From a virus: a stretch of DNA of 64,000 bases. Made by a program: the position numbers and the translations under genes. How positions within the stretch are numbered: the stretch's first letter is position 1; each line of letters opens with the position of its first letter. The notes beneath the pieces were generated by a model. The model did no database searches and was not told the DNA's origin. It was given only the letters and a program-made list of their open reading frames with translations. Of this stretch, positions 1,945 to 63,776 are shown one piece after another. Location: positions 1 through 64,000 of the IMG/VR virus record IMGVR_UViG_3300010157_000061; one strand, given 5' to 3'.

Positions 1945-1953
1945 TATTTATAA
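1945..1953 (+). promoter_or_regulatory. TATTTATAA late-promoter-like motif
   Basis: TATTTATAA lies 22 bases before the ATG at 1976 and just after a terminator. It is the same motif seen before about twenty other genes in the window. Confidence 0.4.
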
Positions 1954-1975
1954 CTATATAGATATATATAAGAAT

Positions 1976-2269
1976 ATGGTTACCGAATATCTTCCTTACG
2001 ATGATGCTGACTTTGAATTTCTTTCTCAAGTTGATCCTGGGATAATAGATACGGTGTTTGAAATACTGGATATAGCTGTGATGGGAGTGTGGGAGGCTAT
2101 GGAATCTGATCCTGAGGAGTTCTTAAAAAAGCTAGATCTAAAACAGGCTACAAGCCTGCAGACTTACTTCAAAAAATTACTAAATCTATATACCCAGTAC
2201 GAATACTATGAAGAATCTATAGAGATTGTACTGATACTAGACCTGCTAGAAAAAAAGTTAGTGAACTAG
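1976..2269 (+). CDS. Hypothetical acidic helical protein
   Basis: 97 residues, no family recognised. The frame is open back to a GTG at 1934, but that start overlaps the terminator T-run and the promoter motif. The ATG at 1976 (MVTEYLPYDDADFEF) is therefore preferred. The protein is strongly acidic and predicted all-helical, with repeated Glu/Leu/Tyr segments (YEYYEESIEIVLILDLLEKK). Such small acidic proteins are common among early phage host-takeover proteins, but this is only a guess. Confidence 0.55.
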   Translation: MVTEYLPYDDADFEFLSQVDPGIIDTVFEILDIAVMGVWEAMESDPEEFLKKLDLKQATSLQTYFKKLLNLYTQYEYYEESIEIVLILDLLEKKLVN

Positions 2270-2291
2270 TTGGAAATATGAAGAAAAAACA

Positions 2292-2329
2292 TTAGCTTTT
2301 TGCTAAATCAATAGCTATTAAAAAATAGC
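2292..2329 (+). other. Two tandem small hairpins
   Basis: TTAGC-ttttt-GCTAA (2292-2306) is followed by GCTATT-aaaa-AATAGC (2314-2329) in the gap before the glutaredoxin gene. Neither has a following T-run, so termination is not indicated. A leader structure or processing site is possible. Confidence 0.3.
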
Positions 2330-2367
2330 AAGATAGAAAGAAAGAGAGAATAAAAAATAAAAATAAA

Positions 2368-2658
2368 ATGTTACAAATATATACGCTAGAAGGTTGTAGT
2401 CGATGTAATGCTCTAGTAAAAGAACTAAATGGTCAAGGTATTAGTTATAGGAATATCGATGCCGATATTAATGCAGAATTAGCAGATAAGGTAGAAAGAT
2501 TACTATCAACTACTATATATCCTATCATACACATTAAAAAATTAACTAAAAGTATTTACCTAACGGGTGAAGATTGTCAACATACTGCTTTTAGCGATAC
2601 TGTTATGACTTATGATTCAATACCTCACGCCGTTATATTAATAAAACAAAACTTATGA
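2368..2658 (+). CDS. Glutaredoxin/thioredoxin-like protein
   Basis: 96 residues with a glutaredoxin layout: a first strand (MLQIYTLEG), then the redox motif CSRC at residues 10-13, helix, strand (ISYRNIDAD), and TIYPIIHI, whose Pro sits at the conserved cis-Pro position before the third strand. T4-like phages carry comparable proteins (T4 NrdC) that reduce ribonucleotide reductase. No reductase gene is in this window, so the partner is unknown. The C-terminal third is less typical. It overlaps the next gene by four bases (ATGA), so the two are probably translated together. Confidence 0.75.
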   Translation: MLQIYTLEGCSRCNALVKELNGQGISYRNIDADINAELADKVERLLSTTIYPIIHIKKLTKSIYLTGEDCQHTAFSDTVMTYDSIPHAVILIKQNL

Positions 2659-2837
2659 GAAATAAACAAGTAGTTACTAGTAAACTAGAGACAGTAGTAA
2701 ATCGTTTAACTAGTCTAGATTCTAGTATGTCGATCGGTAAACCGATTAGAGACCTAAAGTTAGAGATTGAGGATATCAAAGAAAAGTTAGCCGATATCCA
2801 AACTTTAGTAAATAATGAGAGCGATAGTTGGAATTAA
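2655..2837 (+). CDS. Small coiled-coil protein
   Basis: 60 residues, overlapping the glutaredoxin gene at ATGA. Heptad-like spacing of Leu/Ile runs through most of its length (KLETVVNRLTSL, LKLEIEDIKEKLADIQTLV), indicating a coiled coil. No function is recognised. Coupling to the upstream gene suggests co-expression only. Confidence 0.55.
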   Translation: MRNKQVVTSKLETVVNRLTSLDSSMSIGKPIRDLKLEIEDIKEKLADIQTLVNNESDSWN

Positions 2838-2877
2838 GCTAATAAGTCCGTATATTGGTTATTAAATATATAACAAT

Positions 2878-3645
2878 ATGCAATTAACAGCTGAACAGAT
2901 TCAAGAAAATTACCAAATCTTCTTGACCAACATCGAGACCTATATCGAGTCTCCGCGTAAAGAAGCTTTACTTACCTATTATAAGTCTATTGAAGATCAT
3001 CTAGTATTAGCACCTGCTTCTATTAGAGAGACCTATCATAACTGTCTCCCTGGAGGCTATGTAGACCATATCAATAGAGTAGTTAAGGCTTCTTTGCAAT
3101 TGAGTGAACTCTGGAGTCAATTCACGCCTCTAACCTTTACGCAAGAGGAATTAATCTTCGCTGCTATCAATCATGACTTAGGTAAATTAGGTCTAGGAGA
3201 TAAGTCTGGAGTATTTCCTAATGATAATGACTGGCAGGTAAAGAATCAAGGAGTCATGTATAAAATTAATACCGCTCTAACTTTCTCTACTGTACCAGAT
3301 CGTACTTTATTTATCTTACAAAGTATAGGTGTACCAGTTACTGAGAATGAATACCTAGGTATTAAATTACACGATGGTTTATATGATGAATCTAATAAAC
3401 CTTATTTAATATCTTACCAGAACGAAGCTAGATTAAGAACCTCTTTACCTTTAATCTTACACCAAGCTGATTTACTAGCAGCTAGAGTAGAATGGGAGAG
3501 GGTGTGGATGGAGAGATTAACTAGCGGTGTCACTCCTTCAAAACCTAAACCTAAGAGTTTTACTTCAGTAGATGCTAGAAAAGAAGCAGTATCGAAGATA
3601 GGTAAAGCTAATCCTGGTTTGGCTAACATATTAAAAAACTTATAA
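2878..3645 (+). CDS. HD-domain hydrolase
   Basis: 255 residues with the HD metal-dependent phosphohydrolase pattern: H in GGYVDHINRVV, the HD pair in AINHDLGKLG, a further H in IKLHDGLYDE, and the late D in HQADLLAARVEWE. These supply the usual metal ligands. Family members act on nucleotides, cyclic nucleotides or (p)ppGpp, and phage versions are usually linked to nucleotide metabolism. The substrate cannot be told from sequence. The basic tail (about residues 215-255, KPKPKSFTSVDARKEAVSK) lies outside the domain. The leader is AT-rich (attaaatatataacaat). Confidence 0.75.
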   Translation: MQLTAEQIQENYQIFLTNIETYIESPRKEALLTYYKSIEDHLVLAPASIRETYHNCLPGGYVDHINRVVKASLQLSELWSQFTPLTFTQEELIFAAINHDLGKLGLGDKSGVFPNDNDWQVKNQGVMYKINTALTFSTVPDRTLFILQSIGVPVTENEYLGIKLHDGLYDESNKPYLISYQNEARLRTSLPLILHQADLLAARVEWERVWMERLTSGVTPSKPKPKSFTSVDARKEAVSKIGKANPGLANILKNL

Positions 3646-3648
3646 CAT

Positions 3649-3924
3649 ATGATAATAGCAAGCGTCATGTTATGGATTGTTACAATCTTAGGATATGTAA
3701 TCTATAACCTTTACAGTAAGAATACTAAGTTAGAGAAGATGGTGGTTGAGAGGGATCAGATATTATCCGATCTTTCTAATACTATCACAGAATCGGATAG
3801 GGTATTAAAAGAGATAGATAAACTAGGTGCTTTTAAGAGTGATGATGAAATAGGAATCTTTTTCACAACCGTTAAAGATATCCAAGCAGCCCTAAATCAA
3901 TTCACTACCAACAAGATAAACTAA
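3649..3924 (+). CDS. Membrane-anchored coiled-coil protein
   Basis: 91 residues. Residues about 2-22 (MIIASVMLWIVTILGYVIY) form one membrane helix, then a long helical region with heptad character (KLEKMVVERDQILSDLSNTI) and a short acidic linker. No family recognised. The layout resembles small inner-membrane phage proteins. It begins three bases after the HD gene stop, so it is probably co-transcribed with it and with the sigma gene that follows. Confidence 0.55.
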   Translation: MIIASVMLWIVTILGYVIYNLYSKNTKLEKMVVERDQILSDLSNTITESDRVLKEIDKLGAFKSDDEIGIFFTTVKDIQAALNQFTTNKIN

Positions 3925-3928
3925 CCGA

Positions 3929-4678
3929 ATGGATATATTCACACCCGAGATCGAAATCACACTCACACAACAAGGCACGGTAAGAAAGAGGAAGCCTAAA
4001 CAAGCTAATATCTATTTTACCCAAGAGACTGAAGATGCAATCGTAAGATATACTAAGAGTGAAGATGATATAGAGAGGAATGAAATCTTTAATACGCATA
4101 TCAATTATGCCTTTCATAAATTAGCAGAGAATATCATACACACCTTTAAATTTTATTATTCAGAGGTGGAGACGATAGAGGAGTTAAAGCACGAAGTGGT
4201 ATGCGTACTATTAGAGAAGTTAAAGTTATATAAACAAGAAAAAGGTAAAGCTTACTCGTATTTTGGTACAATTGTAAAGAGGTACTTAATTGTTTACAAT
4301 AACAATAACTATAAGAAACTTAAGAATAAAGCTACCTTAGATGAAGTTGATACAGATCAGACTATTGTTGGAGGATTGGTAGATGAAGTGGATTATGAAT
4401 TAGGTAGAGTTAATTTTACAGATGTTTATGTAGACTATATTGACGATAAATTATTTACGCTATTTCCTAAAGAAAAAGAGGCTAGAGTAGCAGATGCTAT
4501 ACTAGAATTATTTAAAAAGAGAGAGAATCTAGATATCTTATCCAAGAAAGCTTTATACATTTATATCCGAGAAATTACAGAAACTAGTACCCCAACCATT
4601 ACAAAAGTCATTAAAAAGCTTAAAACTCTCTATAAGAAACTCCACAACAAGTATCTAGAACAAGGACACCCTTCGTAA
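3929..4678 (+). CDS. 55: gp55-like late-transcription sigma factor
   Basis: 249 residues. The centre (residues about 60-115, HKLAENIIHTFKF, ELKHEVVCVLLEKL, KGKAYSYFGTIVKRYLI) follows the sigma region 2 pattern seen in T4 gp55, a helix bundle with the aromatic/basic face that opens and reads the -10 element. The start NIYFTQETEDAIVRY is one I associate with marine T4-like versions. In T4, gp55 with gp33 and the gp45 clamp directs host RNA polymerase to TATAAATA late promoters. Here a related TATTTATWA motif precedes many virion genes. The C-terminal half (ITKVIKKLKTLYKKLHNKY) is basic and helical. Assignment rests on pattern recognition. Confidence 0.7.
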   Translation: MDIFTPEIEITLTQQGTVRKRKPKQANIYFTQETEDAIVRYTKSEDDIERNEIFNTHINYAFHKLAENIIHTFKFYYSEVETIEELKHEVVCVLLEKLKLYKQEKGKAYSYFGTIVKRYLIVYNNNNYKKLKNKATLDEVDTDQTIVGGLVDEVDYELGRVNFTDVYVDYIDDKLFTLFPKEKEARVADAILELFKKRENLDILSKKALYIYIREITETSTPTITKVIKKLKTLYKKLHNKYLEQGHPS

Positions 4679-4695
4679 TTTTTATAGAAAAGATC

Positions 4696-4704
4696 TATTT
4701 ATTA
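4696..4704 (+). promoter_or_regulatory. TATTTATTA late-promoter-like motif
   Basis: The motif is 14 bases before the ATG at 4719 and opens the baseplate gene block. Confidence 0.45.
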
Positions 4705-4718
4705 GTAAAGAACAGTGT

Positions 4719-5078
4719 ATGGATTTCGAACAAGAGTTATTTAAAGGTAAGAGTTTTTCATCTCTACTCAAAGATATTTACGATAATAGCAGAAGCAAAG
4801 AAAAACAACTCAAGGATTTAGTCGGCCAGTTAAAAGACATGGTTACTGAACCTGGAGATGCTACTCTAATCGTACCTTTACTACAGGGGTATATGGAGGT
4901 AGCTGTTAAGAATGATGAAGCTTTGATTAAGATGGCGGGCATAGTTCAAAAGGCTATGTCGGTGGCAGCGAAAGCAGAAGGCGATACAGAATTACTATCT
5001 GAAAAAGATAAGGAATTGTTGTTCGCTGAAATTAAAAAGATAGATGTACCTGAAGTAACTAAAAAACTAACTGCTTAA
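4719..5078 (+). CDS. Hypothetical virion-associated helical protein
   Basis: 119 residues, predicted almost all helical and acidic (LFKGKSFSSLLKDIYDNS, KEKQLKDLVGQLKDMV). It begins a run of structural genes directly behind a late-promoter-like motif and six bases before the beta-rich hub-like gene. I recall similar small proteins in this position in marine T4-like phages but know of no function. An assembly helper or a minor baseplate part would fit. Confidence 0.6.
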   Translation: MDFEQELFKGKSFSSLLKDIYDNSRSKEKQLKDLVGQLKDMVTEPGDATLIVPLLQGYMEVAVKNDEALIKMAGIVQKAMSVAAKAEGDTELLSEKDKELLFAEIKKIDVPEVTKKLTA

Positions 5079-5083
5079 TACTT

Positions 5084-8288: not shown

Positions 8289-8304
8289 ATTTAGGATTTA
8301 AAAA

Positions 8305-8313
8305 TATTTATAA
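8305..8313 (+). promoter_or_regulatory. TATTTATAA late-promoter-like motif
   Basis: Only four bases separate this motif from the ATG at 8318, so any transcript would be leaderless or nearly so. Confidence 0.45.
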
Positions 8314-8317
8314 ACAT

Positions 8318-19983: not shown

Positions 19984-20008
19984 TTTGACCTAAAACCTAG
20001 TTTACATA

Positions 20009-20017
20009 TATTTATAA
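20009..20017 (+). promoter_or_regulatory. TATTTATAA late-promoter-like motif
   Basis: It lies 22 bases before the ATG at 20040, in a 56-base gap between two structural genes. Confidence 0.45.
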
Positions 20018-20039
20018 TAAGATAAACACATAAAACAAC

Positions 20040-24744: not shown

Positions 24745-24745
24745 C

Positions 24746-24754
24746 TATTTATAA
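24746..24754 (+). promoter_or_regulatory. TATTTATAA late-promoter-like motif
   Basis: It is only four bases before the ATG at 24759, at the switch from the nucleic-acid module to the cargo-like accessory block. Confidence 0.45.
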
Positions 24755-24758
24755 GTGT

Positions 24759-29519: not shown

Positions 29520-29520
29520 C

Positions 29521-29529
29521 TATTTATTA
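29521..29529 (+). promoter_or_regulatory. TATTTATTA late-promoter-like motif
   Basis: It lies 19 bases before the ATG at 29549, directly behind the stop of the zinc-ribbon gene. Confidence 0.45.
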
Positions 29530-29548
29530 TTAAAATACGTAACTACAC

Positions 29549-32440: not shown

Positions 32441-32441
32441 C

Positions 32442-32450
32442 TATTTATTA
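32442..32450 (+). promoter_or_regulatory. TATTTATTA motif two bases before ATG
   Basis: The motif ends two bases from the start at 32453. The same two-base spacing recurs at 37787 and 44953. Confidence 0.4.
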
Positions 32451-32452
32451 AT

Positions 32453-32788
32453 ATGATAAAACTAGTAGACTTATTTAACGAAAGTAAAAACACCAATCTC
32501 TATGAACTAATAGGGAAATTGACTGCTAATACTACCAAGAGAACTTTAGGAGATATATTATCAGATATGAGAGCGATTATAGGAGTGACTATTGTTAGAG
32601 GAGAAGGTCATAGCAGTGACGTACCAACTAATAACCCTTCTTATACAGAAGAAATTAAGCTCAAAATAGACCCTTACCCATTTGCTTCTTTTGGTAAAGA
32701 TCAGGTAAGAGATATTATCAGTCAAATCAAACATATCGACGGTGTAACAACCTTTATACCAAATACAAACGCACGTAAAATCTCATAA
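32453..32788 (+). CDS. MIKL-type small protein 5
   Basis: 111 residues. MIKLVDLFNESKN has FNE in place of LxE. The body reads as an alpha/beta fold (TLGDILSDMRAIIGVTIVRG, EIKLKIDPYPF, VRDIISQIKHIDGVTTF), similar in rhythm to a ferredoxin-like fold. No family is recognised. It has its own promoter-like motif, unlike the four coupled genes before it. Confidence 0.6.
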   Translation: MIKLVDLFNESKNTNLYELIGKLTANTTKRTLGDILSDMRAIIGVTIVRGEGHSSDVPTNNPSYTEEIKLKIDPYPFASFGKDQVRDIISQIKHIDGVTTFIPNTNARKIS

Positions 32789-35059: not shown

Positions 35060-35073
35060 TCTTTCATTCCAGC

Positions 35074-35082
35074 TATTTATTA
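35074..35082 (+). promoter_or_regulatory. TATTTATTA late-promoter-like motif
   Basis: It lies 29 bases before the ATG at 35112, the longest spacing among the motif sites listed. Confidence 0.35.
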
Positions 35083-35111
35083 TAAATCAATAAAAACCAT
35101 ATAATAAAACA

Positions 35112-37010: not shown

Positions 37011-37014
37011 CAGA

Positions 37015-37023
37015 TATTTATTA
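37015..37023 (+). promoter_or_regulatory. TATTTATTA late-promoter-like motif
   Basis: It lies 15 bases before the ATG at 37039. Confidence 0.4.
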
Positions 37024-37038
37024 ATATAAACTTTAAAA

Positions 37039-37781: not shown

Positions 37782-37786
37782 GTTAA

Positions 37787-37795
37787 TATTTATTA
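37787..37795 (+). promoter_or_regulatory. TATTTATTA motif two bases before ATG
   Basis: The motif is separated from the start at 37798 by TT only. Confidence 0.4.
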
Positions 37796-37797
37796 TT

Positions 37798-38325
37798 ATG
37801 AACGAACTAAAAAGAATGCAGCAATTAGCTGGAATACTGAAAGAGAGTACTGGACTAGGAAGCAGTATGAGCTGGCTTAAAAGACTAACTCCGGAAATAG
37901 AAAAAAGCATAGACCGCTTAAAACAAAATTACCCTGACTATACAATTAAAATCACTGATAACAGTACTTGGAGAAGAGATAGACCGGACCTTAAAGGAAC
38001 TTATACATTATCTGTAGACGGACCTGTAATAACACCCGAGTTAAAGGTTGATATAGGTAGAATAGTTGATATGTCCAGGCTACAAGAAGGATTCCAAGGA
38101 GATAATGATGATCAAGATGATGGAATGAGTGGATTTAGAGGAGGAGCATTAGATAGATCAACTCCTAATGAACCTTCAATAGATAAGTCTAAACTAGGAT
38201 GGCAATCCTATCGTCTACTAGATAGATATATTACAAAGATGACTCAAGAACAGAGATTTAGACTGTATCAAACTATAGCTCAATTTCTTACTAAACAGGG
38301 TATAAAGAATCCAGATGAAGACTAA
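37798..38325 (+). CDS. LAGI-type protein 2
   Basis: 175 residues. MNELKRMQQLAGILKESTG carries the same RMQQLAGI string as the end of gp22, followed by an LKE step. An alpha/beta part follows (PEIEKSIDRLKQNYPDYTIK, GTYTLSVDGPVITPELKVDI), then an acidic Gly/Asp linker and a helical end (YRLLDRYITKMTQEQRFRLY). Beyond the leader it does not clearly match the other LAGI proteins. A strong terminator follows. Confidence 0.55.
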   Translation: MNELKRMQQLAGILKESTGLGSSMSWLKRLTPEIEKSIDRLKQNYPDYTIKITDNSTWRRDRPDLKGTYTLSVDGPVITPELKVDIGRIVDMSRLQEGFQGDNDDQDDGMSGFRGGALDRSTPNEPSIDKSKLGWQSYRLLDRYITKMTQEQRFRLYQTIAQFLTKQGIKNPDED

Positions 38326-38417: not shown

Positions 38418-38448
38418 TATAAATATACGGTTTGATGTCCTTTTGATA

Positions 38449-38456
38449 TATTTATA
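38449..38456 (+). promoter_or_regulatory. TATTTATA late-promoter-like motif
   Basis: It sits 12 bases before the GIY-YIG start and just after a strong terminator, so the endonuclease and terL probably begin a new transcript here. Confidence 0.45.
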
Positions 38457-38468
38457 TAAAATAGACTA

Positions 38469-39067: not shown

Positions 39068-39919
39068 ATGAATGAACAAGTAAATTATAAAGCAATAATA
39101 AAACAAGAATTTGTCAAGTGTGCCACAGACCCAGTGTATTTTATGAAACGCTATTATTGGATACAGCACCCTCAACGTGGACGTATTCAATTTAACTTAT
39201 ATCAATTCCAAGAACAGGTCCTACATCTATTACAGAATGATGAGTATATCATAATCAACAAATCAAGACAGTTAGGTATCTCAACCCTAGTATCTGCGTA
39301 TGCATTATGGTTGATGATATTCCAGAAGGATAAGAATATACTAGTTATTGCAACCAAGCAGGAGACGGCCAAGAACATGGTAACCAAGATAAGGTTTGCC
39401 TACGATCAATTACCGGCCTGGTTGAAAGTAAAATCAGTAGAAGATAATAGATTAAGTCTTAGACTAGCAAATGGTTCACAGGTAAAAGCAGTAGCAGCAT
39501 CACCGGATGCAGGTCGTTCGGAAGCAGTATCACTACTGATCTTAGATGAGGCTGCATTCATCGATAACATAGATACAATCTTTACCGCCGCTCAACAAAC
39601 CCTAGCCACTGGAGGACAATGCTTTGCAGTATCAACTCCCAACGGTACATCGAATTGGTTCCATAAAACCTATTCAAGGGCACAGATTAAGGAAAATAAA
39701 TTTACACCCCTTTCTTTACCTTGGACAGTACACCCGGAAAGAGATCAGACCTGGAGAAACGAACAAGATAAGACCTTAGGAGTTAGAGAAGCAGCTCAAG
39801 AGTGTGATTGTATATGGGGAGACAGCAGTGTAACAGTTCAATGCAAAGAGACAGGAGAGGTGAAAATCCTTTCGTTAGAACAGTTATATGCAGAAATGCA
39901 AGAATGTGATTATTTATAA
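39068..39919 (+). CDS. 17: Terminase large subunit, N-terminal part plus N-intein
   Basis: 283 residues. Residues 1-247 are the packaging ATPase: NKSRQLGIST (Walker A, 66-73), LLILDEAAF (Walker B, from 156) and the coupling segment FAVSTPNGTSNWF. Residues 248-283 are intein, beginning CIWGDSSVTV (block A with Cys1) and ending CDYL before TAA. The match to T4 gp17 resumes only in the next gene. The product should be inactive alone and must join its partner by trans-splicing, giving TerL of 247 + 281 = 528 residues. The next gene lies in the same frame after nine bases. Confidence 0.85.
   Translation: MNEQVNYKAIIKQEFVKCATDPVYFMKRYYWIQHPQRGRIQFNLYQFQEQVLHLLQNDEYIIINKSRQLGISTLVSAYALWLMIFQKDKNILVIATKQETAKNMVTKIRFAYDQLPAWLKVKSVEDNRLSLRLANGSQVKAVAASPDAGRSEAVSLLILDEAAFIDNIDTIFTAAQQTLATGGQCFAVSTPNGTSNWFHKTYSRAQIKENKFTPLSLPWTVHPERDQTWRNEQDKTLGVREAAQECDCIWGDSSVTVQCKETGEVKILSLEQLYAEMQECDYL
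39809..39916 (+). other. N-terminal half of split intein (36 codons)
   Basis: It begins at Cys1 after extein ...AAQECD. The block A pattern CIWGDSSV and the strand EVKILSLEQLYAEM are present; block B is absent from this half. An N-half this short is atypical, since most natural split inteins divide after block B. Confidence 0.85.
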
Positions 39920-39928: not shown

Positions 39929-40255
39929 ATGATACAGTTTAAATCAAACAATAAATATAGAGTACAAACACCTAGCGGATTTAAAGATTTCTCAGGAATG
40001 AGAAAGACTACAAAATCTAAGGTAGTAGAGATTACGTTATCTAACGGTAAATACTTGGAAGTATCAGAAGAACACAGGTTTTTAGGTATTGAAAACGTTG
40101 AAATACTAGCTAAAGATTTAATTGAAGGGATATGCCTAACAAAAAAGCTTAGTGTTACAAAGGTTAGTATTGTTGAAAAAGAAACATTTCTATATGATCT
40201 AACAGATGTAGGAGATGACAGCTACTATCTTACAGACGATATAGTATCACATAAT
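39929..40255 (+). other. C-terminal half of split intein (109 codons)
   Basis: It starts MIQFKSNNKYRVQTPSGF, contains a block-B-like EVSEEHRFLG, and ends with YYLTDDIVSHN before Cys+1 of the extein (CDFMTSG). Terminal His-Asn and Cys+1 are the expected splice residues. No homing endonuclease domain fits in the 145 residues total. Confidence 0.85.
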
Positions 40256-41101
40256 TGTGACTTTATGACCTCAGGTGCTACCGTCTTAGAACCGGAATTA
40301 TTAAATTGGTACGATGCTACTTGTGCTCAGGATCCTATGCAGAGAACGGGTATAGACAGTAATATATGGTTGTGGGAGATGCCAGACTATAGTAGAACTT
40401 ATGCAGTAGTAGCCGACGTAGCCAGAGGTGATGGTCGAGATTATTCATCGTTTCACATACTGGATATTGAATCAGCCAAGCAGGTCGGAGAATATAAAGG
40501 ACAGCTAGATACCAGAGATTTCGGTAATATGTTAGTAGGTGTTGCCACTCAATACAATGATGCATTACTGGTAATAGAGAACACAGGTATTGGATGGGAT
40601 GTCGTACAGACGGCAGTACATAGAGAGTATAGAAACCTATACTACTCTCCTAAATCCGATGCAGCTATGACTGATATCGAAGTCTACATCTCTAAATTTG
40701 ATAAAGGAGATGGTATGGTACCAGGCTTCTCAACCACGCAACGTTCAAGACCTTTAGTGATAGCTAAGATGAAATCATATATGCAAGAGAAATCTTGTAC
40801 CATACAATCTAAAAGACTCTTAGAAGAATTAAGAACCTTTGTATGGAAGCATGGCAAAGCACAAGCCCAGGAAGGTTATAATGATGACCTAGTAATGGCA
40901 TGGGCGATCGGTCTATTCCTGAGAGATACTACATTAAGATTCCAACAAGTAGGCCAAGACCTATCCAGAGCTACTCTTGGAGGTATGACAAAATCAAACT
41001 ACGGGTACCAAATCTACCAACCCACAACCTCAACCGGACAAAATCCTTGGGAGATGCCGAATCCTTACGGCCAGCAAGAAGATATTAGATGGGTCCTGTA
41101 A
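39929..41101 (+). CDS. 17: Terminase large subunit, C-intein plus nuclease part
   Basis: 390 residues. Residues 1-109 are the C-terminal half of the intein. From residue 110 (CDFMTSGATVLEPELL) the terminase continues with its RNase H-like nuclease: VVADVARGDGRDYS with the first Asp pair, LLVIENTGIGWDVV with the Glu, and GYNDDLVMAWAI with the last Asp. These cut the concatemer and end packaging. An ATG start at 39929 is supported by the match of MIQF to the start of the AceL-TerL C-half as I recall it. The frame is shared with the upstream gene. Confidence 0.85.
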   Translation: MIQFKSNNKYRVQTPSGFKDFSGMRKTTKSKVVEITLSNGKYLEVSEEHRFLGIENVEILAKDLIEGICLTKKLSVTKVSIVEKETFLYDLTDVGDDSYYLTDDIVSHNCDFMTSGATVLEPELLNWYDATCAQDPMQRTGIDSNIWLWEMPDYSRTYAVVADVARGDGRDYSSFHILDIESAKQVGEYKGQLDTRDFGNMLVGVATQYNDALLVIENTGIGWDVVQTAVHREYRNLYYSPKSDAAMTDIEVYISKFDKGDGMVPGFSTTQRSRPLVIAKMKSYMQEKSCTIQSKRLLEELRTFVWKHGKAQAQEGYNDDLVMAWAIGLFLRDTTLRFQQVGQDLSRATLGGMTKSNYGYQIYQPTTSTGQNPWEMPNPYGQQEDIRWVL

Positions 41102-41110
41102 ACACTTAAA

Positions 41111-41119
41111 TATTTATAA
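41111..41119 (+). promoter_or_regulatory. TATTTATAA late-promoter-like motif
   Basis: It lies nine bases before the portal start. Confidence 0.5.
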
Positions 41120-41128
41120 ATACAACAT

Positions 41129-43063: not shown

Positions 43064-43071
43064 CTATTAAC

Positions 43072-43080
43072 TATTTATTA
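43072..43080 (+). promoter_or_regulatory. TATTTATTA late-promoter-like motif
   Basis: It lies 20 bases before the ATG at 43101. Confidence 0.45.
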
Positions 43081-43100
43081 GTAGTATTATACTAAACTTT

Positions 43101-44947: not shown

Positions 44948-44952
44948 CCCTA

Positions 44953-44961
44953 TATTTATTA
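44953..44961 (+). promoter_or_regulatory. TATTTATTA motif two bases before ATG
   Basis: The motif ends two bases before the start at 44964, with the same spacing as at 32442 and 37787. Confidence 0.4.
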
Positions 44962-44963
44962 AT

Positions 44964-46799
44964 ATGAAATCAATAGTACAACAATACCGTGATCTAAACG
45001 AAGGTAAGATGTCGAAAGCTAACTTTATGACTAACGTTAGACGTCAATTCCCCGATTGGATCTCATCTGTAAATAGTTACCAAGATGCTATAAGCATTTT
45101 AAAGAGTAAGAGAATCCTGAGTGAGGAGTTAGGATCTGGAAGTGAGATGACTGTTAGTTCGGCGATAGAACATATCTTTGACGGTGATTTTGATGGTAAC
45201 CCACTAAAACTAATAAAAGCTAAAGAGTTGGTTAGTACATCAAATCATCCTGATAAAGCAGTTACTCTACATATGATAGAGAAGAAACTAGAAGATGCTT
45301 TAGATGCTGAGATGAAAGGTCAAATGGACCATGATAAAGCACAGTGGGATATGGAGATGAATGAAGATGAAAGTGGAAAGCAAAAAGAATTTGCTGCACT
45401 AGCACCACCTAGAAATAAGATTACTTATGCCGATAAGATTGCAGGTGCGAAATTGAAGAAAGAAGAAGAAGTATCGATGGAGGGTAAGAAACCATTCTAC
45501 CTAGTATCTGATAGCGGAGAGATTGTAGATAGTACAATGGCTGAAGATGAAACTGAAGCTAGACAGTACTTTGAAAATGAATACGAAGGTATCGGTAGTA
45601 GCATGACAATTATACATACTAATAACCCAGACGAAATTGGAGATGTATATGCTGAAGATAGTTTAAATGAAATTAGAAAAAAGAAACCCTCTACAGGTCT
45701 ATCTCAAAAGAAAAAATCAGCTATAGTTAAAAAAGCTAAAGCAGGTGGAGATATAGGTAAGAAAGGTAAAGGCTTTGAAAAAATAGAGAAGACAGCAGAA
45801 AAGAAATATGGTTCAAAAGAGGCTGGAGAAAAAGTTGCTGCAGCTGCGATGTGGAAATCACAAGCTAAAAAAGCTACAGTAAAAGAAGCTAAGGAAGAGA
45901 GTGAAGGCTACTACAAACACGTAACAGGAAAGGACGAATACTCTGTTTTCGATGAAATCGATAGAGTTAATCCTTACGAATTTAAAAGAGGTGTTAATAT
46001 AGAGATGGGAATGCAATACAAACCAATTCCTAAATACTTCACACCTGAATTCAATCCTGAAACACTTGCTAAGGCTACCAAAAAGGTATTAAAGAATCTT
46101 GAAAAAGATCCTGCATACTATACAAATATGATTTCAGCTGAGTTTGAAAAGAAATCAGGCTTACTTCAACATCCAAAAGAACTAAAAGTAGGTCCGGACG
46201 GAAGAGCTAAAATACCTGGATTTACAGATGCTAAATCTAATACAGAGACTAATCAAAGTAAAAAAGAGAGAGCTAAAGGTGGACCAGAGGGCGTAAAAGA
46301 GATGAAGCCATCAAAGAAATCGATGGGTGGAATAAAAACTATGAAGTCTAATGATAAACTACCTAAAGGTGTTGAATTGATGAAAGAATCTTTAAACGAA
46401 GGTGGTGATTATACATTTAACGGGCACTTTAAAACAGGTGAATTAGCTAAACTAAAACAGCAAATACCGGATGCTGAGATTGATACAGATACAGAAGAAG
46501 GGCAATCAGTTAAAACAACTGTAATGTCTAAGAAGTATAACGAAAAGACGATCCAACAAGCTGTTAATAATGTCTTAGGTATGGGTAAATCAAATGAATT
46601 CCCTATCAAAGGTCAGATGATGGAAGATAAAAAAGCTAAACAGTTAAAAAAGATCAAAGAGACTGTAGCTAAGAAGATTAAAGAAGATTTATATAAGAAC
46701 ACCAAATCAGGTAATGTACAGTCTTTCAATCCAGCAGATCCAGCAGATCAAAAGACAATAAGAGACCCTAAGTTTAACCAAGTATTTAAAAAAGCATAA
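44964..46799 (+). CDS. Large Lys/Glu-rich prohead core-like protein
   Basis: 611 residues. The N-terminus IVQQYRDLNEGKMSKANFMT has an LNE step. Residues about 240-310 contain a basic block, KKKSAIVKKAKAGGDIGKKG then EKKYGSKEAGEKVAAAAMW, a motif I have seen in many marine T4-like head-region proteins. Other parts are acidic. The C-terminus has an alpha/beta unit (TGELAKLKQQIPDAEIDTDT, KKYNEKTIQQAVNNVLGMG). It shares TAATG with the protease gene, so it is probably made with the core. It may be scaffold, DNA-binding internal protein, or both. Confidence 0.6.
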   Translation: MKSIVQQYRDLNEGKMSKANFMTNVRRQFPDWISSVNSYQDAISILKSKRILSEELGSGSEMTVSSAIEHIFDGDFDGNPLKLIKAKELVSTSNHPDKAVTLHMIEKKLEDALDAEMKGQMDHDKAQWDMEMNEDESGKQKEFAALAPPRNKITYADKIAGAKLKKEEEVSMEGKKPFYLVSDSGEIVDSTMAEDETEARQYFENEYEGIGSSMTIIHTNNPDEIGDVYAEDSLNEIRKKKPSTGLSQKKKSAIVKKAKAGGDIGKKGKGFEKIEKTAEKKYGSKEAGEKVAAAAMWKSQAKKATVKEAKEESEGYYKHVTGKDEYSVFDEIDRVNPYEFKRGVNIEMGMQYKPIPKYFTPEFNPETLAKATKKVLKNLEKDPAYYTNMISAEFEKKSGLLQHPKELKVGPDGRAKIPGFTDAKSNTETNQSKKERAKGGPEGVKEMKPSKKSMGGIKTMKSNDKLPKGVELMKESLNEGGDYTFNGHFKTGELAKLKQQIPDAEIDTDTEEGQSVKTTVMSKKYNEKTIQQAVNNVLGMGKSNEFPIKGQMMEDKKAKQLKKIKETVAKKIKEDLYKNTKSGNVQSFNPADPADQKTIRDPKFNQVFKKA

Positions 46800-47477: not shown

Positions 47478-47498
47478 GTGTTTACAGTAAAAGTGACA

Positions 47499-47507
47499 TA
47501 TTTATGA
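47499..47507 (+). promoter_or_regulatory. TATTTATGA late-promoter-like motif
   Basis: It lies between the gp21 terminator and the gp22 leader, so scaffold and capsid genes probably have their own transcript. Confidence 0.45.
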
Positions 47508-47513
47508 TTATAT

Positions 47514-50577: not shown

Positions 50578-50604
50578 TAATTGAGGAAAGTAAATAAAAA
50601 AATA

Positions 50605-50636
50605 GAAAAGCCAGCAATAAAATGCTGGTTTTTTTA
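50605..50636 (+). terminator. Rho-independent terminator after gp23
   Basis: CCAGCA (50611-50616) and TGCTGG (50623-50628) flank a six-base loop, with flanking A and T tracts extending the stem; seven T follow. Confidence 0.9.
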
Positions 50637-50657
50637 TGTTCTTTACTGTCATGATAC

Positions 50658-50666
50658 TATTTATAA
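50658..50666 (+). promoter_or_regulatory. TATTTATAA late-promoter-like motif
   Basis: It lies ten bases before the HNH start, within a 15-base string (actatttataataaa) that recurs before phoH at 51282. Confidence 0.45.
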
Positions 50667-50676
50667 TAAAGGAACT

Positions 50677-51243
50677 ATGATAGGTATAAAAACACACACG
50701 TGTACAAGTTGTGGAAAAGAGTTAATTTATGAGAATAAGGTTAGCTGGATGAATGCTAGGACGAAGCTAAATAAGACAGGAGTATTACGATGCCAACCCT
50801 GTGCAGGTAGAGAAGGCAGAGCAGCAAGTAATAAGCAAGTAACAGGAAGGCCAAAAGGAAGTAAGACTTGTCTAGAAAAGAGAATGAGCCATAGTCGACC
50901 TGGTTCAGGAAGTCGGTTAAATAATTCACTAACTTTCGAACAAAGAATGCAAGGAATTGCTAGAAGAAACGGGTATGAAACTTACGAAGAGTATAGAACT
51001 AGTCTAGATGCATGGGAAGCTTATAAAATAGACGTATGGAGAATAACTAACCAACAACCATTACATCTGTTAGAAAATTACGATAAAAGAGGTATAAACG
51101 GAGAAGATGGTGCGTATACGTTAGACCACATTTATAGTATTCGAAAAGGTTTTAACAATAACGTACCTCCAGACGAAATAGGTACGATATCTAATCTCCA
51201 GATGCTACCTTGGCTAGATAATATAATAAAGGGGTGGAAGTAG
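50677..51243 (+). CDS. HNH homing-type endonuclease
   Basis: 188 residues from ATG 50677 (MIGIKTHTCTSCGKELIYEN). The longer TTG-started frame from 50581 would run through the gp23 terminator and is rejected. A zinc ribbon is formed by CTSCGK and CQPCAG. A basic NUMOD-like linker (GRPKGSKTCLEKRMSHSRPG) follows, then the HNH core YTLDHIYSIRKGF, with NLQMLPWLDN supplying the Asn and final residues. Such free-standing enzymes commonly sit next to conserved phage genes. It separates gp23 from phoH and carries its own promoter-like motif. Confidence 0.8.
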   Translation: MIGIKTHTCTSCGKELIYENKVSWMNARTKLNKTGVLRCQPCAGREGRAASNKQVTGRPKGSKTCLEKRMSHSRPGSGSRLNNSLTFEQRMQGIARRNGYETYEEYRTSLDAWEAYKIDVWRITNQQPLHLLENYDKRGINGEDGAYTLDHIYSIRKGFNNNVPPDEIGTISNLQMLPWLDNIIKGWK

Positions 51244-51283
51244 TGTAACAGGCTTTTTTATGTTATATACTTAAGATCTAAAC

Positions 51284-51292
51284 TATTTATAA
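51284..51292 (+). promoter_or_regulatory. TATTTATAA late-promoter-like motif
   Basis: It lies 18 bases before the PhoH start. The flanking sequence repeats that before the HNH gene. Confidence 0.45.
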
Positions 51293-51310
51293 TAAATCAT
51301 AGAGTGTTGT

Positions 51311-58975: not shown

Positions 58976-59003
58976 TCAAGGTAGGTTTAGTAGATTTACA
59001 GCC

Positions 59004-59012
59004 TATTTATAT
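59004..59012 (+). promoter_or_regulatory. TATTTATAT late-promoter-like motif
   Basis: It lies 17 bases before the ATG at 59030. Confidence 0.4.
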
Positions 59013-59029
59013 ATATAAAACTATACAGC

Positions 59030-59269: not shown

Positions 59270-59274
59270 ATTTT

Positions 59275-59520: not shown

Positions 59521-59555
59521 TGTGAAATAAAAAATGGTTTTGCCTTTTAAGTATC

Positions 59556-59564
59556 TATTTATTA
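59556..59564 (+). promoter_or_regulatory. TATTTATTA late-promoter-like motif
   Basis: It lies 20 bases before the tail sheath start, a gene that needs very high late expression. Confidence 0.5.
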
Positions 59565-59584
59565 TTAGAAACTAATTTATAAAC

Positions 59585-61771
59585 ATGGCAGAAACTTTAA
59601 TATCTCCGGGTGTATTCTTACAAGAGAATGACCAATCACAAATCCAACAAGGACCTATCACAGTAGGTGCAGCTATCATCGGACCAACCGTCTATGGACC
59701 TGTAAACATTCCAACTGTCGCAAGATCATACTCTGACTTCAAAGCGAAGTTCGGAGCGTCTTTCGTTAGTGGAGGGACTAGCTTTGAGTACCTAACCTCA
59801 ATCGCAGCTTTGAACTACTTCAACCAAGGTGGTGAAACATTGTTAGTAACAAGAGTAGTATCAGGTACGTATAGTTCCGCTACAGCTTCTGTTGGTAATA
59901 ATATCGCATCAGTAACCGGTCTAACAGCTAATGCTTCTATCGAGACTAGTACCTGGACTGCAGCTAATACAGCATCAGGTGTAGCACTTACAATCGTAAC
60001 TCCGGATAACAACTACCGTTATGTAGCAGGAGCTGCATTTGGAGCAGGTAACAATGTAAATGTTTATTATCCGACTCTAGACTACGGGTATTTTAGCCCT
60101 AACTCAGGTAACGGATACACAAAAGACCAGTGGACAGGATCTTTAATTACATTTGTTGCTGCCCAACCGGAATTAGCTGGTTTATTTACTATATCAAGTT
60201 CAGGTACTAAATTAATTATAAGTGCTTCTTCAGCTGGTACAGCTTTAAACGGAACTAAGTTCTATACAGGCTTATATATAGGATCACCTACAGGCTCTAC
60301 AGTAGCTTCAGGAACTTTAGCAGGCGGTACTGCTCCAACCTTATCTACAGCATTTACTATTGAGACACTATCTCAAGGTATTATAATGAATAATGATTAC
60401 GCAGCTACTACACCAACTAGTTCATTACAGTCAGGTTCAGCTAATAACGTTAGATATGAGGTAAGTTTTTGCGATACTGGATCTGGTTTATTTACTTTAA
60501 TAGTAAGAAGAGGAGATGATTACCAACAACAAAAGAACGTATTAGAGACTTGGAATAATCTATCTCTAGATCCAAATCAAGCTAACTATATCAGCTATGT
60601 AATCGGTGATCAAACAGTAAATTATGCTCAAGATGAAACTGGCGCTTATTATCTACAGTACAGTGGATCTTATCCAAATCAGAGTAGATACATTAGAGTT
60701 AAATCAGTAGCATATCCAACACCAAATTACTTAGACAATCAAGGACGAGCACAGACACAATACCTAAGCTATATGCCGGTAGTAGGATCTGGTTCAGCAA
60801 ACGGATCATTCGGTGGAGCGGTAGGTAATACTATTCAATCAGCTGCAATGAATCTATTCGAAAATATTCCAGCAGCAAATAGTGTAGCAACATCACCAAC
60901 AACAAATATTCAAGGTGTATTCCAAAGTGATTACGCAGTAGCGATCGGATTACTAGGTAATAAAGATCAATACGATTTTAAAACCATTTCTGCACCTGGC
61001 TTAACAGCACAGAATGCAAGTTCAAAAGTAAGTGATTTATTGAGCCTATCACAGACCAGAGGTACAAGTATCTCAGTGGTAGATATGACTTCATATGCAC
61101 AGAATATAACAACCGCTACTCAACAAGCTGGTACTTTAGATTCAAGCTACGGTGCAACATATTGGCCTTGGGTTCAATTAAGATCTCAAGAAACAGGTAA
61201 ATTATTCTTTTGTCCTGCATCTACAATCGTACCTGCAGTATACGAATACAGTGATAAGATATCTGCAGAATGGTTCGCTCCAGCAGGTCTAACTAGAGGT
61301 GGTTTAACAACAGTTATTCAACCAGAAAGAAGATTGACAGTAGGTCAACGTGATATCCTATATGCAGCGAGTGTGAATCCAATCGCAATTTTCCCAGGTC
61401 AAGGTACAGTAATCTACGGTCAAAAGACACTACAAGCTAAACCAACCGCTCTAGACAGAGTAGGTGTAAGAAAACTATTAATCGCTTTAAAACGTTACAT
61501 TGGAAATATTGCAGAAGGATTAGTATTCGAACAAAATACACAATCAACACGTAATAACTTCTTAAACCAAGTTAACCCGTACTTACAATATGTACAGCAA
61601 AAACAAGGTTTATATGCTTTCAAAGTAGTAATGGATGATTCAAATAACACACCGGATGTAATTGATAGAAACCAATTAGTAGGTGCGATTTACTTACAAC
61701 CAACTAGAACTGCCGAATTTATTATGATCGACTTCAACGTTCAACCAACCGGTACAACATTTGGAGTATAA
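59585..61771 (+). CDS. 18: Tail sheath protein gp18
   Basis: 728 residues (T4 gp18: 659). N-terminal sheath signature SPGVFLQENDQSQIQQGPIT with GAAIIGPTVYGPVNIPTVA, then YSDFKAKFG. The C-terminal contractile core has ISAEWFAPAGLTRGGLTTVI, VNPIAIFPGQGTVIYGQKTL and VRKLLIALKRYIGNIAEGLV. It forms the outer tube that contracts to drive the tail tube into the host. The middle (residues about 90-330) is a Ser/Thr/Gly-rich surface insert. Confidence 0.95.
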   Translation: MAETLISPGVFLQENDQSQIQQGPITVGAAIIGPTVYGPVNIPTVARSYSDFKAKFGASFVSGGTSFEYLTSIAALNYFNQGGETLLVTRVVSGTYSSATASVGNNIASVTGLTANASIETSTWTAANTASGVALTIVTPDNNYRYVAGAAFGAGNNVNVYYPTLDYGYFSPNSGNGYTKDQWTGSLITFVAAQPELAGLFTISSSGTKLIISASSAGTALNGTKFYTGLYIGSPTGSTVASGTLAGGTAPTLSTAFTIETLSQGIIMNNDYAATTPTSSLQSGSANNVRYEVSFCDTGSGLFTLIVRRGDDYQQQKNVLETWNNLSLDPNQANYISYVIGDQTVNYAQDETGAYYLQYSGSYPNQSRYIRVKSVAYPTPNYLDNQGRAQTQYLSYMPVVGSGSANGSFGGAVGNTIQSAAMNLFENIPAANSVATSPTTNIQGVFQSDYAVAIGLLGNKDQYDFKTISAPGLTAQNASSKVSDLLSLSQTRGTSISVVDMTSYAQNITTATQQAGTLDSSYGATYWPWVQLRSQETGKLFFCPASTIVPAVYEYSDKISAEWFAPAGLTRGGLTTVIQPERRLTVGQRDILYAASVNPIAIFPGQGTVIYGQKTLQAKPTALDRVGVRKLLIALKRYIGNIAEGLVFEQNTQSTRNNFLNQVNPYLQYVQQKQGLYAFKVVMDDSNNTPDVIDRNQLVGAIYLQPTRTAEFIMIDFNVQPTGTTFGV

Positions 61772-61793
61772 TTAAAAATAACTAGACTAAAGA

Positions 61794-62087
61794 ATGCAAA
61801 CTATAAAAGTACGAATACCTTCTAAACTATATGAATCTTTTAAAAAGAAAGGATTCTTAAAAGAAGAAGAGCTTCAAGACGAAGCAGCTAAAGTAAGACA
61901 GGAACCAAAAAGAGGAGGTCATATCGAATACATCATTACTTCAAATGATAAAGGAGAGGTAGAAAAAGAGGTAGCAGATATAAAAAAAAGATTTCCTTCA
62001 GGAGGCTATGGTACAACACTTAAAAAGATGTATCAAAAAGGTTCAACCTGGATAGCAATCGTATCACGTGGTCAATCATCAGATTAA
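61794..62087 (+). CDS. Small basic protein between sheath and tube genes
   Basis: 97 residues, basic. It opens TIKVRIPSKLYESFKKKGFL and continues with a charged helix, the strand HIEYIITSNDKGEVEKEVAD, and GSTWIAIVSRG. No family known to me. T4 has no gene between 18 and 19, so this is an insertion or lineage-specific tail protein. The start IPSKLYESF also resembles an amphipathic helix with an LKE step (GFLKEEELQ). Confidence 0.55.
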   Translation: MQTIKVRIPSKLYESFKKKGFLKEEELQDEAAKVRQEPKRGGHIEYIITSNDKGEVEKEVADIKKRFPSGGYGTTLKKMYQKGSTWIAIVSRGQSSD

Positions 62088-62120
62088 TCAAAAATAAGTT
62101 ACAATTTTAGTAAACCAGTA

Positions 62121-62129
62121 TATTTATAT
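62121..62129 (+). promoter_or_regulatory. TATTTATAT late-promoter-like motif
   Basis: It lies 14 bases before the tail tube start. Confidence 0.45.
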
Positions 62130-62143
62130 TAAATAAACAAAAC

Positions 62144-62629
62144 ATGAGCGTTTTAGACCCTAACGAAATATTTTTCACAGCATTTGAACCACAGGTACAA
62201 AACAGGTTCATTATGTATATCGACGGTATACCTTCTTACTTAGTTAAAAAGGCGTCAGCACCAGGCTTTGAAGCAGGTGAGATTATCTTAGATCACATCA
62301 ACGTCTACCGTAAAGTAAAGGGTAAGGTTAGATGGAATGATATCACACTAGCTTTATACAATCCAATCACTCCTTCAGGAGCACAATCGGTAATGGAGTG
62401 GGCTCGTCTAGCACACGAATCTGTAACAGGTAGAGATGGTTATTCTGATTTCTACAAAAAAGACATCACTCTAAACTCTCTAGGACCAGTAGGTGATATC
62501 ATCGGAGAATGGATCATAAAAGGTGCTTACGTTAAGACTGCTACATTTGGTGATTATGATTGGTCTGCAGATGCAGCAATCGAATTAGCTGTAACACTAG
62601 CATGCGATTTTTGCGTTTTGAACTTTTAG
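62144..62629 (+). CDS. 19: Tail tube protein gp19
   Basis: 161 residues (T4 gp19: 163). QVQNRFIMYIDGIPSYLVKK and SAPGFEAGEIILDHINVYRK mark the tube fold, followed by ITLALYNPITPSGAQSVMEW and the closing strands WIIKGAYVKTATFGDYDWSA and VTLACDFCVLNF. It forms the hexameric rings of the inner tube. It is preceded by its own promoter-like motif and followed by a terminator, so it is a single-gene unit suited to high expression. Confidence 0.95.
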   Translation: MSVLDPNEIFFTAFEPQVQNRFIMYIDGIPSYLVKKASAPGFEAGEIILDHINVYRKVKGKVRWNDITLALYNPITPSGAQSVMEWARLAHESVTGRDGYSDFYKKDITLNSLGPVGDIIGEWIIKGAYVKTATFGDYDWSADAAIELAVTLACDFCVLNF

Positions 62630-62663
62630 ACTGTGTTCTAAATTTCTAATAAAAAATAAAATT

Positions 62664-62695
62664 AAAGTCCTCTATGAAAATAGGGGATTTTTTTT
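62664..62695 (+). terminator. Rho-independent terminator after gp19
   Basis: GTCCTCTAT and ATAGGGGAT pair around gaaa with G-U pairs, and eight T follow. Confidence 0.8.
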
Positions 62696-62704
62696 GTTTG
62701 TAGA

Positions 62705-62713
62705 TATTTATAT
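62705..62713 (+). promoter_or_regulatory. TATTTATAT late-promoter-like motif
   Basis: It lies 24 bases before the ATG at 62738. Confidence 0.4.
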
Positions 62714-62737
62714 ATAGATAAAAACATTTACAACGTT

Positions 62738-63508
62738 ATGCAAACACCAACACAATCGGCTTCAAAATTTAGCCTGCCTACTGAAACAGTAGAACTACCG
62801 TCAAAAGGATTATTATATCCAAAAGAATCGCCTCTATCAGAGGGTAAGATTGAGATGAAGTATATGACCGCAAAAGAGGAAGATATACTATCCAATAGTA
62901 ACTACTTAAAAGATGGTACAGTTATTGATAAACTTCTACAAGCTCTAATCGTAACCAAGGTTAACTATGATGAGTTATTGATCGGAGATAAGAATGCTAT
63001 CTTGGTTGCTGCTCGTGTATTAGGATATGGTAAAGACTATACTTTTGAAACCGTTAATTCAAATGGTCAAAAAGAGAAGGTGACCTGTGACCTGTCTAAA
63101 CTAAGAGATAAGCCCTTAGATGAAACACTTGTTAAACAGGGTTTAAATGAGTTTTCTCTTGATCTTCCTACCACCGGTACTACTATTACATTTAAGCTAT
63201 TATCTCATGGAGACGACAAGAAGATCGATGCAGAGATTAAAGGCTTATTAAAGCTATCACCTAAAGGTTCTTTTGATAGAACCACAAGACTCAAACACAT
63301 CATCACATCAGTGAATGGAGATAGAGATCAAAAAGCTATCCGTGAATTTGTCGATAATTACTTGGTTGCAAAAGATTCAAGAGTATTGAGAAGTTATTAC
63401 GAAAAAGTATCTCCAGACGTAGAATTAAAACACTACTCAGACGATGCAGAGGAGGGCATTGATATCCCAATCGGGCTAGATTTTTTTTGGCCAGGGTCAG
63501 ACGAGTAG
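62738..63508 (+). CDS. Tail assembly protein (gp26-like / chaperone G position)
   Basis: 256 residues. ETVELPSKGLLYPKESPLSE and GKIEMKYMTAKEEDILSNSN form an opening common to T4 gp26-like hub proteins and tail assembly chaperones of contractile phages. The core continues with LDETLVKQGLNEFSLDLPTT and TRLKHIITSVNGDRDQKAIR, and the chain ends LDFFWPGSDE. The gene lies between tube and tape-measure-like genes, exactly where G/GT chaperones occur. A T8 run near its end (63481-63488) allows a shift into the next frame. Confidence 0.65.
   Translation: MQTPTQSASKFSLPTETVELPSKGLLYPKESPLSEGKIEMKYMTAKEEDILSNSNYLKDGTVIDKLLQALIVTKVNYDELLIGDKNAILVAARVLGYGKDYTFETVNSNGQKEKVTCDLSKLRDKPLDETLVKQGLNEFSLDLPTTGTTITFKLLSHGDDKKIDAEIKGLLKLSPKGSFDRTTRLKHIITSVNGDRDQKAIREFVDNYLVAKDSRVLRSYYEKVSPDVELKHYSDDAEEGIDIPIGLDFFWPGSDE
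63481..63488 (+). promoter_or_regulatory. T8 run, candidate ribosomal frameshift site
   Basis: Codons read GAT TTT TTT TGG in the upstream frame. The downstream frame opens at 63480 (TAG at 63477-63479) and the upstream frame stops at 63506-63508, so the shift must occur in about 29 bases. The T-run allows +1 or -2 slippage. Confidence 0.55.
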
Positions 63509-63755
63509 GATAGGTCTATTCTCAGAAATACACGAAATTGTGTTTCATGGTCAGGGAGGATATGATTGGGAGACGATCTATAATATGCCGATTTGGTTGA
63601 GGAAGTTCACTTATAACAAAATGAAAGTATATTACGAGAAGAAGAATGCTAGTAATAATACACAACCTCAAGACCCAGCTCAGATATTTAAACCCAATAT
63701 CCAACAACCTCCAGCAGACTATGTAACAAAAACTAAATCGGCGGCTAAGAAATAG
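63489..63755 (+). CDS. Frameshift extension (chaperone T-like part)
   Basis: 88 codons in the frame reached by a +1 (or -2) shift. There is no ATG near the start; the first GTG (63540) falls inside the conserved-looking helix RIGLFSEIHEIVFHGQGGYD. The segment YDWETIYNMPIWLRKFTYNK resembles short proteins that follow gp26-like genes in other phages. The end is Gln/Pro-rich and basic. Translation as a fusion with the upstream protein is favoured over a separate GTG-started 71-residue protein. A terminator hairpin overlaps its stop. Confidence 0.6.
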   Translation, partial: GQGQTSRIGLFSEIHEIVFHGQGGYDWETIYNMPIWLRKFTYNKMKVYYEKKNASNNTQPQDPAQIFKPNIQQPPADYVTKTKSAAKK

Positions 63756-63765
63756 TCGCCTTTTT
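63740..63765 (+). terminator. Rho-independent terminator
   Basis: GGCGGCTA (63740-63747) pairs with TAGTCGCC (63753-63760), one G-U, loop of five, then five T. The stop codon of the upstream frame lies in the stem. Confidence 0.75.
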
Positions 63766-63767
63766 CC

Positions 63768-63776
63768 TATTTATAT
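63768..63776 (+). promoter_or_regulatory. TATTTATAT late-promoter-like motif
   Basis: It lies 19 bases before the ATG at 63796, just after the terminator T-run. Confidence 0.45.

Follow-up and report, generated by a model that had tools for sequence, protein, structure and literature searches.

Promoters recognized by sigma-A in Flavobacterium have the form TTG-N-TAnnTTTG. Their boxes span positions -12 to -5 (PMC9723704), and the 8-bp late box of phage T4, TATAAATA, begins at -13 (PMC2988020). The T4 late system (gp55-gp33-gp45; PMC2988020, PMC7892883) is built on one short AT-rich box placed roughly a helical turn upstream of the start, with no -35 element, with boxes preceding head and tail genes and with a phage-encoded protein of the sigma region-2 type. 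The same features surround a TATTTAT box in the DNA described here, a stretch of 64,000 nucleotides (nt; hereafter the window) within a 67.7-kb viral record, IMG/VR IMGVR_UViG_3300010157_000061. Judging from its sequence context, TATTTAT is very probably a phage late-gene promoter. Taken as a whole, the explanation that we consider probable is a late promoter of T4 logic in which TATTTAT serves as a single -10-like box, a sigma-like protein encoded at 3929 is the probable reader and a subset of the transcripts is leaderless. Such a promoter would differ from that of T4 in its sequence, in a register that brings the box about 2 nt closer to the predicted start, and in its conserved leaderless subset.

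Leaderless phage mRNAs are already known, so leaderlessness itself has precedent: Thermus phage phiYS40 makes most of its middle and late mRNAs in this form (reviewed in PMC3594737). Among host mRNAs they are rare (5.5% in F. psychrophilum; PMC9723704). In TA-led bacterial genes (PMC3160421) and the -10-adjacent open reading frames (ORFs) of Deinococcus-Thermus (PMC12340547), a TA-like box approximately 10-12 nt before the ATG is a sign of leaderless transcription. The system described here resembles phiYS40 in its predicted leaderless phage mRNAs, but only a subset of genes is affected, two or three gene families retain the arrangement and the host group is different. It resembles the TA-led genes and -10-adjacent ORFs in its box-to-ATG distance; those are cellular genes, whereas the box described here is a putative late promoter and belongs to a phage clade akin to the Flavobacterium phages.

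TATTTAT upstream of late genes

The window encodes a T4-type portal, major head protein and tail sheath and thus belongs to a distant T4-like myophage. Its genome is A+T rich, with nearly all genes on the + strand. The closest cultured relatives are the Flavobacterium phage immuto isolates (58% identity for the head protein and 50% for the homologue of the 3929 protein), and the phages of this clade probably infect Bacteroidota. Two scans of viral contigs yielded 160 related loci, with a 3929 homologue present in all second-scan loci by construction. Late genes were defined in immuto from the genome region in which they lie and in the other genomes from homology to immuto, a classification based on annotation and not on expression.

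A first-pass annotation of the window had described a recurrent TATTTATWA motif before about twenty genes and had suggested that it was a late promoter. All 22 sites that it listed carry TATTTAT on the + strand, which is the coding strand, just before a gene. The nine-base form is exact at 16 of them; as the other six deviate, reading TATTTATAT (38449, 59004, 62121, 62705 and 63768) or TATTTATGA (47499), we take the 7-mer TATTTAT as the core. TATTTATWA occurs 19 times in the window, compared with 7.8 +/- 2.6 times in dinucleotide shuffles (maximum 13), and 18 of these copies are on the + strand, the sole - strand copy overlapping a + strand site. The 7-mer is found 34 times on the + strand and seven times on the - strand. 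The motif is not equally frequent inside genes: for the 74 genes called in the window, TATTTAT is present at -60..-1 of 23 and at +20..+80 of none. Twelve further + strand copies that the first-pass annotation did not list are nearly all intragenic. The accompanying observation that many sites directly follow terminators holds for some of them, with a hairpin and T-run preceding 50658, 62705 and 63768.

Among the approximately 160 related loci, TATTTAT is both the most frequent and the most strand-biased 7-mer upstream of genes. It occurs in 463 of 1053 upstream regions of relatives, with 70 occurrences on the opposite strand. For the 1190 genes of the head-protein loci, it is present at -60..-1 of 362 and at +20..+80 of three, and its reverse complement, ATAAATA, is upstream of 67. 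In a relative with genes on both strands (G003), the motif is found on the coding strand upstream of genes in both orientations.

The predicted preference for late genes was confirmed in five genomes. In the complete immuto genome, the motif precedes 20 of 64 genes of the structural regions and 13 of 154 others (p 5e-5), and when only intergenic regions of at least 30 nt are considered, these values are 18/21 (late) and 10/57 (other). Three more large genomes and the record studied here show the same direction, with odds ratios of 5.6-13.7. The box is also kept upstream of orthologous genes (62/62, 57/57, 37/37 and 56/65 in four sets), while the sets of mid-operon genes have none (0/68 for gp23, 0/63 for the prohead protease and likewise for others). 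Together with the position-fixed start signature described below, this bias and conservation give the late-promoter claim good support.

More distant relatives carry similar boxes. In Mel-JY01, TATTTAT precedes 10 of 36 genes; this phage differs from those described here in that its boxes are 13-37 nt from the ATG, 58% of its genes have a Shine-Dalgarno (SD) sequence and the stretch examined revealed no leaderless site. Rhodothermus phage RM378 has boxes before many genes that differ in their last base (TATTTAA), which suggests that this distant relative has a promoter of related type. We found no earlier report of the TATTTAT motif in a literature search of incomplete coverage, and queries on a TATTTATA phage promoter, RM378 promoters and gp79 returned nothing relevant.

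Predicted transcription start and reading factor

With the first T of TATTTAT numbered 0, the sequence logo extends to [A/C]TATTTAT[A/T]NN[not G]A. At sites 9-45 nt from an ATG, A is found at index 11 in 80%, directly before the box in 76% and at index 7 in 66%, compared with 31%, 29% and 32%, respectively, for control copies of TATTTAT elsewhere. Within the window, A occupies index 11 at 21 of the 22 listed sites and at 4 of the 12 unlisted + strand sites, which lack the flanking signature, and the base directly before the box is A or C at all 22. The position of this A is constant relative to the box but not relative to the ATG, as expected of an initiating purine. The A at index 11 is thus the likely transcription start, and the box would then span about -11 to -5. 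Positions -30 to -5 before the box were not notably informative across 491 sites, and no conserved -33/-35 element is apparent. We propose that transcription most likely begins at a purine, usually A, situated 11 nt downstream of the first T, and that the box is probably read by host RNA polymerase carrying the 3929 sigma-like protein.

A second class of boxes is found in immuto. Pre-gene TATTTAG boxes are concentrated at 60-76 kb, and 17 of the 20 are preceded by TTG at a distance of exactly 25 nt, giving the consensus TTG-N20-TATATTTAG, which is close to the host sigma-A type. This early class is strongly conserved (AGTTGC...TATATTTAGGTAT, with TTG at a fixed distance); it is clear in immuto only, as the other genomes have few TATTTAG sites. 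Among the immuto late boxes, TTG is found anywhere in the -26..-19 interval in 6 of 37. The two classes differ at the seventh box base and in the upstream element, a difference that fits a switch of recognition factor, and the late promoter can in this way be told apart from the early one.

It might be argued instead that host sigma-A holoenzyme reads TATTTAT as a variant of its -7 element and that no phage factor is involved. The -7/-10 element of Flavobacterium sigma-A promoters is in nearly the same register, and the immuto early and late boxes have an ATATTTA core in common. We nevertheless consider this unlikely for three reasons. First, the late boxes mostly lack the TTG of the sigma-A promoter and have a different box, while it is the early promoters that resemble it. 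Second, the sigma-A box TAnnTTTG was present in none of 57 early and none of 21 late immuto upstream regions. Third, the bias toward late genes requires some regulator.

The likely reader of the TATTTAT box is the 249-amino-acid protein encoded at 3929..4678 (+ strand), which looks like a sigma factor in its predicted structure. The AlphaFold model (pLDDT 72.5) has a region-2 fold at residues 25-135. Residues 32-135 match region 2 of sigma-E (2map) over 92 residues at 2.9 A with a Z of 9.5, although values under 13 can be common among helical proteins; the match to 5or5 is 2.4 A over 91 residues, and sigma factors dominate the list of structural matches. The C-terminal domain is weakly region-4-like, its best match being SigA region 4 (3.4 A over 68 residues, with a low Z of 5.7). 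Among 3929 homologues, there are weak sequence matches to Pfam Sigma70_r2 in 10 of 23 (best E 0.0012) and to the sigma factor family phrog_1740 in 6 of 24; phrog_234 ("late sigma") gave one weak match (E 0.67). A PDB sequence search with the 3929 sigma alignment returned no match up to E 10, and the annotated sigma factor of RM378 has no similarity to 3929 recognisable by BLAST.

The earlier designation of this protein as gp55-like survives in part. The sigma region-2 fold is in agreement with it, but hhalign comparison with 15 T4-type gp55 sequences gave a probability of 1.1%, and 3929 differs from gp55 in its extra C-terminal domain as well as in the absence of significant sequence similarity. 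A further possible difference from the T4 system concerns the sliding clamp: no match to the T4-type clamp C-domain profile (PF09116) was found in immuto, G001, G003, G006 or the record studied here, while T4 itself was detected (4e-53), although a profile miss does not mean that a clamp is absent. A single-subunit phage RNA polymerase was also considered as reader and rejected, as PF00940 was not found in immuto or its relatives (T7 control 1e-110), a search that covered this polymerase type alone.

Distance to the start codon and predicted leaderless transcripts

The distance between box and ATG is bimodal, with a group at 4-6 nt, few cases at 7-9 nt and a broad hump at 10-30 nt. SD-like sequences precede about 5% of the genes in the clade. 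Most late genes would be transcribed from a start 6-26 nt before the ATG, giving a short leader without SD, while in a second class the first transcribed base would be the A of the ATG (4 nt spacing) or lie 1-2 nt before it, making the transcript leaderless or nearly so.

A spacing of exactly 4 nt occurs in 107 cases, which come from 13 gene families. Counted from its first T, the box of these 107 genes lies 11 nt ahead of the ATG, within the approximately 10-12 nt of the leaderless sequence criterion of PMC3160421, and the predicted start coincides with the A of the ATG. The base before the ATG is C or T in 107/107, whereas motif-less genes have A there in 46%; a pyrimidine at this position would stop initiation from slipping one base upstream. 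The first-pass annotation had described a gap of exactly two bases after the nine-base motif at three genes, and this gap, equal to 4 nt after TATTTAT, is correct for genes 32453, 37798 and 44964 of the window. Their putative leaderless promoters are cTATTTATTAATATG (32441..32455), aTATTTATTATTATG (37786..37800) and aTATTTATTAATATG (44952..44966), all on the + strand. The suggestion that such transcripts are leaderless is supported, with the refinement that the start is predicted to lie on the A of the ATG and not inside the codon, because the distance from box to start is about 2 nt shorter than in T4.

Two gene families preserve this arrangement. Members of the 44964 family, located between the portal and prohead protease genes, have the motif in 56 of 65 cases, with a spacing of exactly 4 nt in 43; they include 15 different spacers, and although their upstream flanks share only 35% identity, the box and its distance are retained. 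In the 8318 family the motif is present in 37/37 and the 4 nt spacing in 27, and in a 23-member family with a similar N-terminal sequence the spacing is 4 nt in 23/23. As two families retain the distance across dozens of phages in which the flanks have been randomised, their transcripts should be leaderless. In the window, the box of gene 8318 (8304..8316, + strand) is itself near-leaderless, 6 nt from the ATG. The box of gene 24759 (24745..24757, + strand) is also 6 nt from the ATG, with the predicted start position occupied by G.

A more tentative proposal, somewhat more doubtful than not, is that the distance from promoter to ATG selects the mode of translation, and that a small fixed set of genes has been selected to be strictly leaderless as a programmed part of late infection. 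This set would comprise the gene between the portal and prohead protease genes and a gene beside the baseplate wedge genes, each arranged as box, 4 nt ending in C/T, and ATG; the remaining late genes would have short SD-less leaders. A phage-encoded homologue of ribosomal protein S21 was considered as a translation partner and rejected: it was found in Mel-JY01 and LR756508 and not in the record studied here, immuto, RM378 or seven relatives.

Several points weigh against the promoter explanation or parts of it. The 13 non-late immuto genes noted above bear the motif too, and gene starts were assigned by a simple longest-ORF rule. Shared ancestry of the related phages means that the raw counts overstate independence. 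All transcription starts given here are deduced from sequence. What the sequences show is the motif with its strand and late-gene bias, its conservation, the fixed A, the bimodal spacing and the scarcity of SD; promoter function, the exact start base, the reading factor, the host and leaderless translation are inferred. The sigma region-2 matches of 3929 are structural and weak by sequence, with Foldseek E-values that are not significant, and the tie between this protein and the box consists of co-occurrence and a modelled fold. Genes with a distant motif have C/T before the ATG in 72%, so this signal is partly non-specific to the leaderless class. Finally, counted by family, spacings of 4, 5 and 6 nt are about equally common (13, 11 and 10), making "leaderless or within 2 nt" the safe wording.

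The boxes lie near start codons, the clade lacks SD and the 4-nt class has a fixed spacing to the ATG, all of which would also suit a signal that works in RNA, with UAUUUAU recruiting ribosomes or directing processing. We consider this improbable: at most sites the fixed partner of the box is the A at constant distance, regardless of the ATG; mid-operon genes such as gp23 and the protease need translation and yet lack the motif; the motif favours late genes; and in Mel-JY01, an SD user, the box is present but farther from the ATG.

Because TATTTATA is the exact reverse complement of TATAAATA, the boxes could in principle be T4-type late boxes in reverse, firing antisense. This is hardly credible, as the only strong flank signals (A/C before the box and A at index 11) fit rightward initiation, no comparable start signal is present upstream of the box and the box faces the downstream gene in the genomes examined. 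An origin by chance in AT-rich intergenic DNA, to which an A+T-rich genome would lend itself, is equally remote, being refuted by the strand counts in relatives and the shuffled-sequence counts in the window and by retention of the box in orthologues with randomised flanks.

With a late promoter of this type, the T4-like phages related to immuto, a large group of which most members are uncultured, would gain a testable consensus and a predicted start base. It would also be a natural case in which leaderless late mRNAs recur and are conserved, and the relatives of these phages infect hosts that are not SD-reliant. Scores of related phages, most of them uncultured, keep the arrangement, and a direct test is feasible in immuto, a cultured phage.

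Locations of the boxes and other observations

The remaining putative late-promoter boxes of the window are all on the + strand. The first, cTATTTATAACTA (1944..1956), is 24 nt from a gene start assigned from sequence at 1976. It is followed by the boxes at 4695..4707, before gene 4719 (equivalent by gene order to immuto gp117, in a family with the motif in all 62 members), at 20008..20020 (gene 20040) and at 29520..29532 (gene 29549). Further boxes are located at 35073..35085 (gene 35112), 37014..37026 (gene 37039), 38448..38460 (gene 38469), 41110..41122 (the gp20-type portal gene, 41129) and 43071..43083 (gene 43101, the orthologues of which have the motif in all 57 cases). The box at 47498..47510, which has the deviating TATTTATGA sequence, precedes gene 47514, and that at 50657..50669 is followed after 12 nt by an ATG at 50677, in frame with the ORF at 50581-51243. 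The box at 51283..51295 precedes a PhoH-like gene (51311) and that at 59003..59015 precedes gene 59030. Tail genes follow at the right end: tail sheath (59585; box 59555..59567), tail tube (62144; box 62120..62132) and baseplate hub (62738; box 62704..62716). The last box, at 63767..63779, precedes a gene start at 63789.

For two of these genes, the longest ORF starts upstream of the box, with GTG at 1934 (1934-2269) and TTG at 50581 (50581-51243); the in-frame ATG codons at 1976 and 50677 are likelier starts.

The large terminase gene is apparently split by a split intein between the ORFs at 39068-39919 and 39929-41101. The first ends in terminase sequence followed by an intein-like N-terminal piece. 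The second starts with an Intein_splicing match (E 7.5e-5) ending in ...VSHN, after which the terminase sequence resumes at C.

Between 24759 and 37798, several proteins have short, helical-looking N-termini ending in an L-x-E type sequence (MIKL..LLEGG, MNELKRMQQLAGILKE). These are reminiscent of the T4 capsid-targeting sequences that are cut by the prohead protease.

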